Positions 937 to 6,445 of a DNA stretch of 64,000 nt are shown one piece after another. Within the stretch, counting starts at the first letter, position 1. Each line of letters opens with the position of its first letter. A program made the position numbers and the translations under genes. A model generated the notes under the pieces. It was not told where the DNA came from. It worked only from the letters and a program-made list of their open reading frames with translations, and did no database searches. The stretch is taken from the NCBI GenBank assembly GCA_017526785.1, contig JAFXQV010000003.1, forward strand, positions 62,001-126,000, in the 5' to 3' direction. The stretch is from Oscillibacter sp. (lineage in GTDB: Bacteria; Bacillota; Clostridia; Oscillospirales; Oscillospiraceae).

Positions 937-1012
937 GGAATCGGCAGTTTCAGCGCATGATGAAGCCCGGTATTGCGCCCGCCAAGCGCCCGGGACACAA
1001 GGAGGAACCGCT

Positions 1013-2314
1013 ATGCAGACAATTCAGTTTGAAGTAACTAACCCCTTTGGCATTCATGCCCGCCCGGCGGCGATTTTGGCACAGGCTTGCGTCAAAATGC
1101 CCTCACAGATTACCGTGAAGTGCAACGGTAAGACCGCCAACGGCAACAATGTCATTCAGCTTCTGAGCCTCCACGCGGTGCAGGGTTCCGTTCTGGAAAT
1201 CAGCGCCGAGGGCGGCGACGAGGCCGCCACGCTCGCGCAGATTGAACAAATCCTGAATGACACCTTTGCCGAAAAGAAAAAGGTCGATGTCCTGAAAATC
1301 GCCTTTTTCGGCACCAAGGACTATGACCAGCTCTTTTTCAGCGAACTGGTCAAGGACAAGGGAGAGGGGACTTTCAACTGCGACATTAACTTTTTCAGTA
1401 CCCGCCTGACCCCCGAAACGGCCTACCTTGCCAAAGGCTATGACGCGGTGTGCATTTTCGTCAACGACGAATGCCCCGCGCAGGTCGTCGACACGCTCGC
1501 CGACGCGGGTGTCAAGCTGATTCTGCTCCGCTGCATGGGCTTCAACAACGTTGACTTGGAAGCGGCGGCGCGCCGCGGCTTGACGGTTGTCCGCGTCCCG
1601 GCCTACTCCCCCTACGCCGTCGCGGAACACGCCATGGCAATTATCATGGCGGCCAACCGCCGCCTCCACAAGGCCATTTACAGGGTCAAGGACAACAATT
1701 TCTCCCTGAACGGCCTGATGGGCGTCGACCTCCACAACAAAGTCGCGGGTATCATCGGCACGGGGCAGATTGGGCAGTGCTTCGCCCGTATCTGTAAGGG
1801 CTTCGGCATGACGGTCATCGCGTGGGACGCGTACCCGAATCAGAAACTGGTCGACGAGGGTCTGCTGACCTACGCCGACAAGAACACCGTGCTGGAAAAG
1901 GCCGACTTGGTGTCCCTGCACGTTCCCCTGTTCATGGGCGAGGGCGGCACGTTCCACATTCTGGACGCCGAGGCCATTTCCCATATGAAGGACGACGCCA
2001 TGCTTGTCAACGCCGGGCGCGGCGCGTTAATCGACACGGAGGCGTTAATCGCGGCGCTGAAGGCCGGGAAGTTCCACGCCGTGGCGCTGGACGTGTACGA
2101 GGACGAGGACGCGTACGTGTACACCGACCACTCCGACGACTTCATCCGGAATGAAAATCTGGCGCGTCTGCTGATGTTCCCGAACGTGGTGGTAACGTCT
2201 CATCAGGCATTCTTCACGCGGGAGGCGTTGCAGGCTATCGCCGGAACGACGCTCGAAAACGCCCGCAACTTCAACGAGGGCAACCCGCTCGGCGCTGGCG
2301 AGTGCAAGGCGTAA
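1013..2314 (+). CDS. HPr-domain / D-lactate dehydrogenase fusion protein
   Basis: The 433-residue protein starts at ATG 1013 behind AAGGAGG. Residues 1-88 form a complete HPr domain: GIHARPAA carries His15 and Arg17 at exactly the HPr positions, but the regulatory Ser46 is Asn46. Residues about 93-433 are a D-2-hydroxyacid (D-lactate type) dehydrogenase with the NAD motif GTGQIG (249-254), substrate-site segment RCMGFNNVDL (173-182), and the catalytic set Arg336, Glu365, His397 at the same spacing as in lactobacillal D-LDH. HPr carries phosphate from enzyme I to PTS sugar transporters; the dehydrogenase reduces pyruvate to D-lactate with NADH. A fused protein could couple PTS phosphorylation state to lactate formation; that is inference. 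The HPr part could also be only a structural remnant. Confidence 0.9.
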   Translation: MQTIQFEVTNPFGIHARPAAILAQACVKMPSQITVKCNGKTANGNNVIQLLSLHAVQGSVLEISAEGGDEAATLAQIEQILNDTFAEKKKVDVLKIAFFGTKDYDQLFFSELVKDKGEGTFNCDINFFSTRLTPETAYLAKGYDAVCIFVNDECPAQVVDTLADAGVKLILLRCMGFNNVDLEAAARRGLTVVRVPAYSPYAVAEHAMAIIMAANRRLHKAIYRVKDNNFSLNGLMGVDLHNKVAGIIGTGQIGQCFARICKGFGMTVIAWDAYPNQKLVDEGLLTYADKNTVLEKADLVSLHVPLFMGEGGTFHILDAEAISHMKDDAMLVNAGRGALIDTEALIAALKAGKFHAVALDVYEDEDAYVYTDHSDDFIRNENLARLLMFPNVVVTSHQAFFTREALQAIAGTTLENARNFNEGNPLGAGECKA

Positions 2315-2412: not shown

Positions 2413-3000
2413 TTACTTTTCCATCATGGAGCGCCATGTGCCGTTCTCACGCGCCATTTCCGCCTCACAGACCTCAATAAGGAGCGCGTCCTTTTCCGCT
2501 TCCGTCCCTTTTGAGAACTTTTCGGCGTTGTTGAAATAGAAATACAGCGTTCTGAGCAGAATTTCCCGCGTATTGCGATAAGTCACCCATAAGTCCTTGG
2601 AGTTGTTCAGGGATATATACGCGTTCAGAGCAGTCACGGCAACGCCAAATACGGCAATCAGAACCTGCGCCACCGACGGTTCCCCCAGAAACAGAGAGGT
2701 CACCGGAATCAAAGCGCCAAATACAATGGAAGCGGACATCAGGCGATGATACTGCTTCTTGCACTCTCCGCTTTTCTTGCTGTACCATTTCATTTGCTCC
2801 AGTAGACGATTCTTTACGTAGTCTTTGGTACGGGGGTCTTGGATTTCCTCGACCAGTGGGGCAAGCGCGTCATGTCTGGAAGACGACGCCTTTTTTTGCG
2901 TCGGGGTTGCCTCTGTCGGCGTTATCGCCGGAGTTTCGTCTGGCGGCACCGGGGTTACATCCGCCTGCGTGGTGGTTACATCTTGATTTTGATTCTCCAT
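2413..3000 (-). CDS. SLATT-type (DUF4231) two-TM membrane protein
   Basis: This is a 195-residue protein with a Pro/Thr-rich, charged N-terminal tail (1-45), a basic amphipathic stretch, two membrane helices at about 88-105 and 110-130, and a C-terminal helical part containing YRNTREILLRTLYFY. That layout matches DUF4231 in the SLATT superfamily, predicted pore-forming effectors in nucleotide-signal conflict systems. No cyclase, SLOG or other sensor gene sits next to it; its only partner is the upstream membrane protein 6 bases away on the same strand. The family match is by recognition, and the defence role is inference. Confidence 0.65.
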   Translation of the reverse strand: MENQNQDVTTTQADVTPVPPDETPAITPTEATPTQKKASSSRHDALAPLVEEIQDPRTKDYVKNRLLEQMKWYSKKSGECKKQYHRLMSASIVFGALIPVTSLFLGEPSVAQVLIAVFGVAVTALNAYISLNNSKDLWVTYRNTREILLRTLYFYFNNAEKFSKGTEAEKDALLIEVCEAEMARENGTWRSMMEK

Positions 3001-3006
3001 AAAACC

Positions 3007-3558
3007 TCACTCCATTAGTTCCTTGCTGGGAATACTGTTACGTACCTGACTTCTAAGGTTCTTGAGTTTGCCACTCAGGGAATCATATTTCCCGGAGAAT
3101 TTGGAAGGGTCAAAAGCGTCCCAATTCAAAGTTCTGTCCGGACACAGGGGGCTTTTCGTACGGTCGCACCACTGTTCCCATTCAGGCGGTCGCAATGCCT
3201 TGTACCAGTCATTTATGAAGGCCTGATGTGCGTTGAAAAAATCATACACCGCTTCTTCCGGGCAATCAAGGTAGCAACCGTTCATTTTGAAAATGCTATC
3301 TTGGAGGTTTTGAATCAGCCGCACAGCATCAGCCTGACGATTGACATCATAAGCGATTTTGCTGTCTTTGCCGTGCTGAAACAAATGATAGACATTGTTG
3401 ATTTCGGTCAGGTAATTCTGCCTGTTTTTCGTGTGCCTGTTTTTATAGCGAATCCAAAATCTCCACGCCACAACCACGACAGAGAAAACGGCGCTAAAGA
3501 TTCCCCAGCAATCGCCCAATGACGCATTCTCAAACAGTTGTTTGATATATATTATCAT
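3007..3558 (-). CDS. Hypothetical membrane-anchored protein, operon partner of the SLATT gene
   Basis: This 183-residue protein has one membrane helix near residues 18-38 (GIFSAVFSVVVVAWRFWI) followed by a basic stop-transfer segment and a cytosolic, mostly helical region rich in Asn, Asp and aromatic residues. I do not recognise the family. It is the first gene of a two-gene unit with the SLATT protein (6-base gap) and has a good promoter 36 bases upstream. Its codon use looks more AT-rich than that of the housekeeping genes nearby, which fits a transferred accessory pair. Confidence 0.6.
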   Translation of the reverse strand: MIIYIKQLFENASLGDCWGIFSAVFSVVVVAWRFWIRYKNRHTKNRQNYLTEINNVYHLFQHGKDSKIAYDVNRQADAVRLIQNLQDSIFKMNGCYLDCPEEAVYDFFNAHQAFINDWYKALRPPEWEQWCDRTKSPLCPDRTLNWDAFDPSKFSGKYDSLSGKLKNLRSQVRNSIPSKELME

Positions 3559-5441: not shown

Positions 5442-5969
5442 ATGCACAACCCCGAACCCATGTTCACCCCCAACCAGCGCCGTTTCACGGCGGTGTCCAC
5501 GCGCCAGATTGCCAAGGCCGGACTTATCGCCGCGCTCTACGCCGTGCTGACTGTTTTTGTGCCTGTTCCGCAATACGGCGGGATTCAGTTCCGCGTCGCG
5601 GAGGCCATGACGGTTTTGCCGTTCCTGTTTCCGGAAGCCGTTTTCGGACTGACGGTCGGCTGTTTCATCGCGAATCTGTTCTCCCCGTTCCTGCTCGACT
5701 GCGTGATTGGCACGTCCGCCACACTGTTGGCCGCCCTCTGGACATCCGGCCTCAAAAACCCGCTGTTAGCCCCCATGCCGCCCGTGGTGTGCAACGCCGT
5801 CATTATCGGCGCGGAAATCGCGTGGTTCGCCGCGCGGGACGGCGAAAACTTCCTCCGGGCGTGGCTGTTCAACGGCTTTACGGTCGGATTCGGCGAACTG
5901 CTGGCCTGTTACGTCCTCGGCCTGTTGCTGTTGCGTACGCTTCCCCGCGTGATGGGGCGCCGGAAATGA
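5442..5969 (+). CDS. queT: QueT-family queuosine-precursor ECF transporter S component
   Basis: The 175-residue membrane protein has about five hydrophobic helices. The segment IQFRVAEAMTVLPFLFPEAVFGLTVGC is typical of QueT proteins (shown here only as its family mark: FRVAEAMTVLPF). QueT is the substrate-binding subunit that brings queuine-type precursors into the cell with a shared ECF energising module, which is not encoded here. The start is ATG 5442 after AGGAGG; the alternative Met7 is also possible. The stop overlaps the ogt start in an ATGA arrangement. No convincing preQ1 riboswitch was found in the 90-base leader. Confidence 0.85.
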   Translation: MHNPEPMFTPNQRRFTAVSTRQIAKAGLIAALYAVLTVFVPVPQYGGIQFRVAEAMTVLPFLFPEAVFGLTVGCFIANLFSPFLLDCVIGTSATLLAALWTSGLKNPLLAPMPPVVCNAVIIGAEIAWFAARDGENFLRAWLFNGFTVGFGELLACYVLGLLLLRTLPRVMGRRK

Positions 5970-6445
5970 GCGCGTACGTTTTTCGTTACGCGTCCCCGCT
6001 TGGGGCGCTGACGCTCTGCTCCGACGGCCACGCCCTGACGGGGCTGTACTTCGATGGACAGCGCCACTTCATGGAAGCCTCTTCCGAACCGTGGGAGGAG
6101 GCGGAGCTTCCCGTATTCGCGCAGTCGGCGCGCTGGCTGGACGCCTATTTCTGCGGTACCGCGCCGGACTTCACGCCCCCGCTTGCCCTGCGCGGTACGC
6201 CGTTCCGCGTGGCGGTCTGGAATGCCCTGCTCGAAATCCCCTATGGGCATACCGTCGCCTACGCAGACCTTGCGCGGCGGCTCGGAAGTTCCCCGAGGGC
6301 TGTCGGGGGCGCGGTCGGACACAACCCCGTTTCGCTGATAGTCCCCTGTCACCGGGTTATCGGCAGACGCGGAACGCTGACCGGTTACGCCGCCGGACTG
6401 GATATCAAAGCCCGTTTGTTGGCACTGGAACGCGGAAACACGTAA
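5966..6445 (+). CDS. ogt: Methylated-DNA--protein-cysteine S-methyltransferase
   Basis: This 159-residue suicide repair enzyme removes O6-alkyl groups from guanine. It contains the active-site PCHRVIG motif with acceptor Cys128, the helix-turn-helix region YGHTVAYADLARRLG and the conserved Asn hinge (GHNP). The true start is ATG 5966, inside the ATGA overlap with queT. A longer open frame back to 5378 exists, but its extra part only shadows queT. It lacks an Ada-type regulatory domain. Confidence 0.92.
   Translation: MSAYVFRYASPLGALTLCSDGHALTGLYFDGQRHFMEASSEPWEEAELPVFAQSARWLDAYFCGTAPDFTPPLALRGTPFRVAVWNALLEIPYGHTVAYADLARRLGSSPRAVGGAVGHNPVSLIVPCHRVIGRRGTLTGYAAGLDIKARLLALERGNT

Follow-up and report, generated by a model that had tools for sequence, protein, structure and literature searches.

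The window, a 64,000-nucleotide stretch of Oscillibacter sp. DNA, carries at 1013–2314 on the forward strand a single open reading frame that starts with ATG and encodes 433 amino acids followed by a stop codon. The product is one protein, in which an HPr domain is fused to a D-lactate dehydrogenase (D-LDH). The open reading frame list gives a longer form of 459 aa from an in-frame ATG at 935; the start at 1013 is preferred because of the ribosome site in front of it and the starts of the relatives. Among the 26 relatives with upstream DNA inspected, all but locus L059 show a ribosome site in front of this same start (25/26). The features of the gene are listed in Table 1.

Table 1. Features of the fused gene and their positions in the window
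Feature	Position	Strand	Basis
Ribosome site AGGAGG	1000..1005	+	Sequence; 7 bases before ATG 1013
Fused gene HPr-D-LDH	1013..2314	+	Open reading frame, sequence, Pfam
HPr domain, residues 1–85	1013..1267	+	Pfam PF00381 at 4–82
His15-Ala16-Arg17, HPr phosphorylation site	1055..1063	+	98/98 fused proteins with N-terminus
Asn46 where the HPr-kinase serine stands	1148..1150	+	Residue counts over 98 fused proteins
Linker, residues 86–92	1268..1288	+	Alignment of fused proteins
D-lactate dehydrogenase part, residues 93–433	1289..2311	+	phmmer to 5z21/5z20; PF00389, PF02826
GTGQIG, residues 249–254	1757..1774	+	Position in sequence; inside NAD-binding Pfam domain
Arg336	2018..2020	+	99/99 fused proteins
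Glu365	2105..2107	+	99/99 fused proteins
His397	2201..2203	+	99/99 fused proteins

An MmeI-type restriction-modification protein is represented upstream of the fused gene, at 156–773, by its C-terminal part, with the target recognition and C-terminal domains. Downstream, the region 2413–3558 on the reverse strand contains a SLATT_1/DUF4231 protein (2413–3000), preceded on the same strand by a 183-aa open reading frame without a Pfam match; SLATT domains are often defence effectors. The stretch 3720–4154 matches a WapI-like immunity protein family, and at 5442–6445 a QueT transporter is followed directly by a methylguanine-DNA methyltransferase.

The N-terminal part of the fused protein is an HPr by profile. 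The Pfam PTS-HPr match has an E-value of 4e-21 and 75.2 bits against a cut-off of 23, the TIGR01003 match has 70.5 bits against a cut-off of 47.9, and the closest solved relatives are free HPrs, e.g., 1rzr_T, 3le5 and 3le1. The remainder is assigned by sequence to the D-2-hydroxyacid dehydrogenase superfamily, since it matches the Pfam domains 2-Hacid_dh (PF00389, residues 114–425, E 5e-29) and NAD domain (PF02826, residues 208–399, E 2e-47) and contains Arg336, Glu365 and His397, the catalytic residues of the family. GTGQIG is presumably the NAD-binding glycine motif. In phmmer searches, the D-LDH structures 5z21 (E 1e-96) and 5z20 (E 4e-93) align from residues 93 and 94 to 426; we take these to be the D-LDHs of F. 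nucleatum and P. aeruginosa, of the tetrameric, allosteric type. In solved structures, the match to D-LDH begins at residue 93, and by its closest solved relatives the LDH part is a D-LDH of this type. Among the best 25 of 32 NCBIfam families, no named D-LDH model was matched over its cut-off, the highest being vanH_gen (217 bits; cut-off 540) and PRK12480 (206; 579). Pyruvate is presumably the substrate.

A total of 99 distinct fused proteins were collected. The first set of 102 fused sequences was reduced by 12 duplicates to 90, and a second set of 10, less one duplicate, added nine. The N-terminus is present in 98 proteins; L060, truncated by the end of its contig, was excluded from the HPr counts. 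The lengths are uniform, 429–436 aa in 89 sequences and 431–434 aa in the nine added, and the stretch aligned to residues 81–96, around the linker, comprises 15–18 residues in the 89 fused proteins examined. The scan of genome contigs with the fused protein yielded 28 loci: 24 full fusions, sharing 61–97% identity with the protein of the window, the cut L060 and three one-part matches. The records of the fusion loci are attributed to Oscillibacter, Oscillospiraceae, Erysipelotrichaceae, Solobacterium, Lachnospiraceae, Clostridiales and Merdimonas, and several of them name ruminant hosts. The fusion was found in 3 of 300 genomes of the window's family (its own included), which by its nearest named relatives is taken to be Oscillospiraceae. 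An Erysipelotrichaceae-like family, that of genome G313, has it in 65 of 272 genomes, and a Lachnospiraceae family, that of G320, in 13 of 397. The 65 cases comprise 61 full-length fusions on one contig, three split over two contigs and one cut. Class samples searched at E 1e-150 gave 1/391 (the window's own only) and 11/395, two of which were already known.

A frame error or chimera that fuses two genes is ruled out by the 98 distinct sequences of the same layout across many assemblies. The dN/dS values also argue against such an artefact, the probability of which is negligible: calculated for seven sequences from the close group around the window's protein (L041 was omitted for its length), they are 0.066 for the HPr part and 0.040 for the LDH part, rough values because dS is near 1, and by this measure both parts are under purifying selection. 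The earlier note on this DNA had described HPr and D-LDH as one protein with His15, Arg17, Asn46, Arg336, Glu365 and His397. Each residue is at its position, the order of the parts recurs in all 98 proteins whose N-terminus is complete, that of the window among them, and His15 is retained in every one of them. The same note had raised the case of a fusion without relatives, where 99 distinct fused proteins were found, and had the two parts joined without a gap; the union stands, but a linker of about 10 residues separates the end of the HPr match (82) from D-LDH residue 93.

The two parts diverge at different rates. The mean identity over 351 pairs of 27 proteins is 54% for the HPr part and 76% for the LDH part, which corresponds to a 1.9-fold faster divergence of the former. 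Against this background the fixity of the HPr active site stands out, with His-Ala-Arg at positions 15–17 invariant in the 98 fused N-termini. The hydrophobic docking residues are also well kept (Val47 in 94/98, Leu48 in 90/98 and Leu51 in 94/98). Over 89 rows, the mean entropy is 0.90 bits in 14 residues taken to face enzyme I and EIIA and 1.79 bits in the remaining residues (permutation p 0.0009). A docking face of low entropy is to be expected in any HPr that still docks, so this feature cannot tell control of the enzyme from its mere location. The reading that we favour, and hold to be rather more probable than an even chance, is that of a D-LDH with a built-in PTS sensor, in which phosphorylation of His15 by enzyme I would gate the formation of lactate.

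At residue 46, the site of HPr kinase in HPr, 77 of the 98 fused proteins have Asn, 19 have Asp, one has Glu and one has Ser; the sole protein with Ser46, L168, branches off at the base of the fused rows in the tree. The kinase site, proposed by the earlier note to be lost on account of Asn46, is indeed lost in 97 of the 98. This loss is not special to the fusion: out of 22 separate HPrs taken from fusion genomes, 20 were read (L067 and L083 were left out), with Ser in 11, Gln in five and Lys in four, and since nine of the 20 are without Ser46, its loss is nothing unusual in these genomes. The window's genome itself has Gln46 in the HPr linked to enzyme I, beside EIICBA, and Ser46 in a second separate HPr on another contig. 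By these counts, the mark of the fusion is Asn, Asp or Glu at residue 46 and not the mere loss of Ser46. The HPr kinase C-domain was found in 26 of the 28 fusion genomes and not found in that of the window (G000) or in G313; its absence from the former is not proven, because the assembly is 94.6% complete.

Asp and Glu resemble phosphoserine, but Asn and Asp both serve well as helix caps, too. Work on HPr phosphorylated at serine 46 suggests that Asp or Glu at this position (20/98) could weaken phosphorylation by enzyme I, which counts against gating through His15. These acidic residues and the faster change of the HPr part would fit a domain retained for folding, oligomer formation or stability, with no phosphate chemistry. 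The invariant His15-Ala16-Arg17 inside a fast-changing domain and the low entropy of the docking face speak against a purely structural role, which we consider quite improbable. The sequence evidence sets this role apart better than it separates gating by phosphorylation, docking at enzyme I and phosphate carriage from one another.

The PTS content of the fusion genomes bears on these latter possibilities. EIIC and an HPr match outside the fused gene were found in all 28 genomes and the enzyme I N-domain in 25; it was not found in G314, G316 and G321, which counts against the proposed sensor, and these three genomes may be incomplete MAGs. The window's genome encodes enzyme I with all three domains, beside EIICBA and HPr, and two separate HPrs in total. 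With its phosphorylation site intact and EIIC present throughout, the fused HPr might act as an extra phosphocarrier, handing phosphate from enzyme I to EIIA domains with the LDH as cargo. However, as another HPr is matched in every genome, the fused domain need not serve transport, and in the window's genome the enzyme-I-linked HPr already adjoins EIICBA. Phosphate carriage would also leave the attachment of the LDH in every case unexplained, and we regard it as improbable. A TnpB-like transposon protein, recognised by eye (L198:331–1656), is located near the enzyme I, HPr and EIICBA genes of the window's genome.

The same spare HPr is compatible with a scaffold, since the fused domain then need not carry phosphate onward. 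The HPr domain would dock the LDH at enzyme I, which is established to make pyruvate from PEP; the released pyruvate would be reduced on the spot and PTS flux pulled forward, and phosphorylation need not alter catalysis. The conserved docking patch agrees with this proposal. On the other hand, docking alone should not require invariant His15 and Arg17 (98/98), and pyruvate diffuses freely and is also made by pyruvate kinase. A scaffold is rather unlikely in our estimation.

The L-LDH/malate-DH C-domain was found in eight of the 28 fusion genomes and not found in the other 20, the window's among them. A second close D-LDH was not found in the window's genome either, the other dehydrogenase matches there being 27–30% identical. 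On these grounds, the fused enzyme is probably the fermentative LDH of this genome.

For the preferred reading, a D-LDH gated through His15, the following course of events can be proposed. Enzyme I charged by PEP would phosphorylate His15 of the N-terminal HPr domain. During inflow of PTS sugars, phosphate would drain to the sugar, the PEP/pyruvate ratio would fall and His15 would be mostly free. The unphosphorylated domain would permit or activate the LDH, and the phosphorylated domain would restrain it. In this way, the pyruvate and NADH that PTS-driven glycolysis supplies would be converted to D-lactate mainly while sugar flows in. The loss of the HPr-kinase site would free the domain from control by the ATP/FBP-driven kinase. 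We infer the phosphorylation of His15, its effect on the LDH and the sign of this effect. The sign, with free HPr as the activator, was chosen by analogy with HPr and pyruvate kinase: pyruvate kinase A of V. vulnificus is stimulated by unphosphorylated HPr through a lower Km for PEP (PMC5987630), and in E. coli both PykF and PfkB are bound by HPr (PMC8167557). The LDH type would also suit a switch, judging from the related D-LDH of F. nucleatum, which shows cooperativity for pyruvate and is enhanced by both FBP and Mg2+ (PMC4230899). As read from its sequence, the fusion suggests that sugar uptake may directly control fermentation in some gut bacteria.

The LDH part has residues of its own. 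Trp271 is present in 90/90 fused proteins and 0/53 standalone D-LDHs, Asn242 in 90/90 and 3/53, and Lys290 in 86/90 and 0/53, respectively; Asn419, Phe108 and Asn122 are further residues of the fused LDHs that are rare in unfused ones. Such class-specific residues may mark contacts with the HPr part. These residues and the tree described below cover the first 90 of the 99 fused proteins, and the entropy covers 89 of these.

A tree was built from 143 D-LDH domains. One of its branches (SH-aLRT 100) has all 90 fused proteins on one side, which corresponds to one change of state between unfused and fused. This is a quick tree, in which 41 of 140 branches are open. The 53 standalone rows (27 loci, nine stretches and 17 loci) are part of those found and were mostly picked by rank, so it is for this sample that the fusion is concluded to have arisen once. 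The first fork among the fused rows leads to L058 and L168 of the Lachnospiraceae family, and the unfused rows adjoining them are L169–L171 of the same family, plus L011. At least nine changes of host family were counted among the 78 of 90 fused rows with a family label (12 have none), a count to be read with the caveat that MAG contigs may be misplaced. The single branch, the changes of host family and the differing gene neighbours together suggest that the fusion took place once and that the gene was then transferred by itself.

No constant operon partner was found, neighbour families being each common to at most five of the 26 loci, and shared neighbours occur mostly between close relatives; the lack of a conserved neighbour counts against the proposed sensor. 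In two of the loci, L042 and L044, an antisense open reading frame masked the fused gene, which was itself counted in 24 of 26. A GH1 glycosidase is encoded within 1.5 kb of the fused gene in four of the 26 loci (L047, L051, L061 and L062); two were profiled, one being nearer to 6-phospho-beta-glucosidases and one to plain beta-glucosidases, both under the cut-off. Four of the loci also have an aldo/keto reductase with a 4Fe-4S domain downstream of the fused gene (L048:7398–8519, L051, L061 and L062), as profiled in the L048 copy.

On the matches described here, plasmids and phages were rejected as carriers of the fusion. All 2786 matching plasmid records have less than 60% identity, compared with 61–97% for the fused relatives; 11 of them cover 80% of the query, and in the one inspected, from Vibrio campbellii, the stretch before the LDH is by eye not an HPr. 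The 45 phage records are likewise all below 60% identity, with none covering 80%. In viral contigs, eight loci were obtained, with matches beginning at residue 81 or later; both search patterns lie in the LDH part. Within 300 bases upstream of the gene in 25 loci, a cre box was not found and a search for Rex boxes gave one weak Rex-like match, in L043.

Several known systems resemble parts of this arrangement. Free HPr (PF00381/TIGR01003) shares the profile family, His15, Arg17 and the hydrophobic residues 47, 48 and 51; it is, however, a carrier of about 85–90 residues and not the front of an enzyme, and its Ser46 is replaced by Asn, Asp or Glu in 97 of the 98 fused proteins. The tetrameric, allosteric D-LDHs (5z21, 5z20) align over the whole LDH part with the catalytic Arg, Glu and His kept, but they have no HPr domain, and the fused class has residues of its own (Trp271, Asn242, Lys290). 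Crh of Bacillus, an HPr-like protein found besides HPr, is presumably regulatory, and Crh chains match the HPr part weakly. Crh has lost His15 and kept Ser46, and the fusion is the reverse.

The HPr domain is already a module of longer proteins in the multidomain PTS phosphotransferases (FPr/FruB, MTPs and DhaM, itself a multidomain PTS protein with an HPr module). Their partners are PTS domains, whereas here the partner is a fermentation enzyme: in Pfam, only HPr and dehydrogenase/NAD-binding domains match in the window protein, with no EI or EIIA partner. In PMC2405797, which treats multidomain HPr proteins, EIIA and EI are named as partners, and the paper does not contain the word dehydrogenase. 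HPr also controls metabolic enzymes in trans, namely glycogen phosphorylase in E. coli (PMC5320558), E. coli PykF and PfkB, both bound by HPr (PMC8167557), and PykA of V. vulnificus. The regulation of PykA and PykF acts, as the fusion would, at the pyruvate node; in these cases a separate HPr binds the enzyme, and in the fusion HPr is covalently attached. The main texts of PMC11793828 and PMC8167557 contain neither 'LdhA' nor 'lactate dehydrogenase'. Among the open-licence literature matches listed (titles and abstract starts), no HPr-dehydrogenase fusion was found, in agreement with the earlier note, which knew of none; the 'HPR' of PMC6303947 is hydroxypyruvate reductase and not HPr. HPr and D-LDH are thus known kinds, and their union, in 99 distinct proteins, appears to be undescribed within the open-licence literature searched.

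Taken as a whole, with a probability that we put slightly above even, the fused proteins would be fermentation enzymes wired to the PTS: enzyme I would phosphorylate the LDH polypeptide, and the state of His15 would set the flow from pyruvate to D-lactate. Such a unit would have a single origin, probably in Lachnospiraceae, would have shed its control by HPr kinase and would since have passed between families of gut Firmicutes as a self-contained whole. The natural fusion makes the link between HPr and an enzyme testable with one protein. If the proposal is true, lactate output in many Firmicutes of the rumen and gut would track PTS flux directly, with no need for transcription, and this has a bearing on acid production in the rumen. 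The fusion would then also provide a ready-made module with which an enzyme could be coupled to sugar uptake.

A different extension is seen in the standalone D-LDHs of the tree. A Cys-rich C-terminal tail, CYxC..C..KCF, is present in 22 of the 53 (L012, L013, L015, L019–L022, L025, L027–L030, L037 and L147–L155) and absent from the 90 fused proteins tested. This tail may be a metal or redox site, another add-on to the same enzyme.
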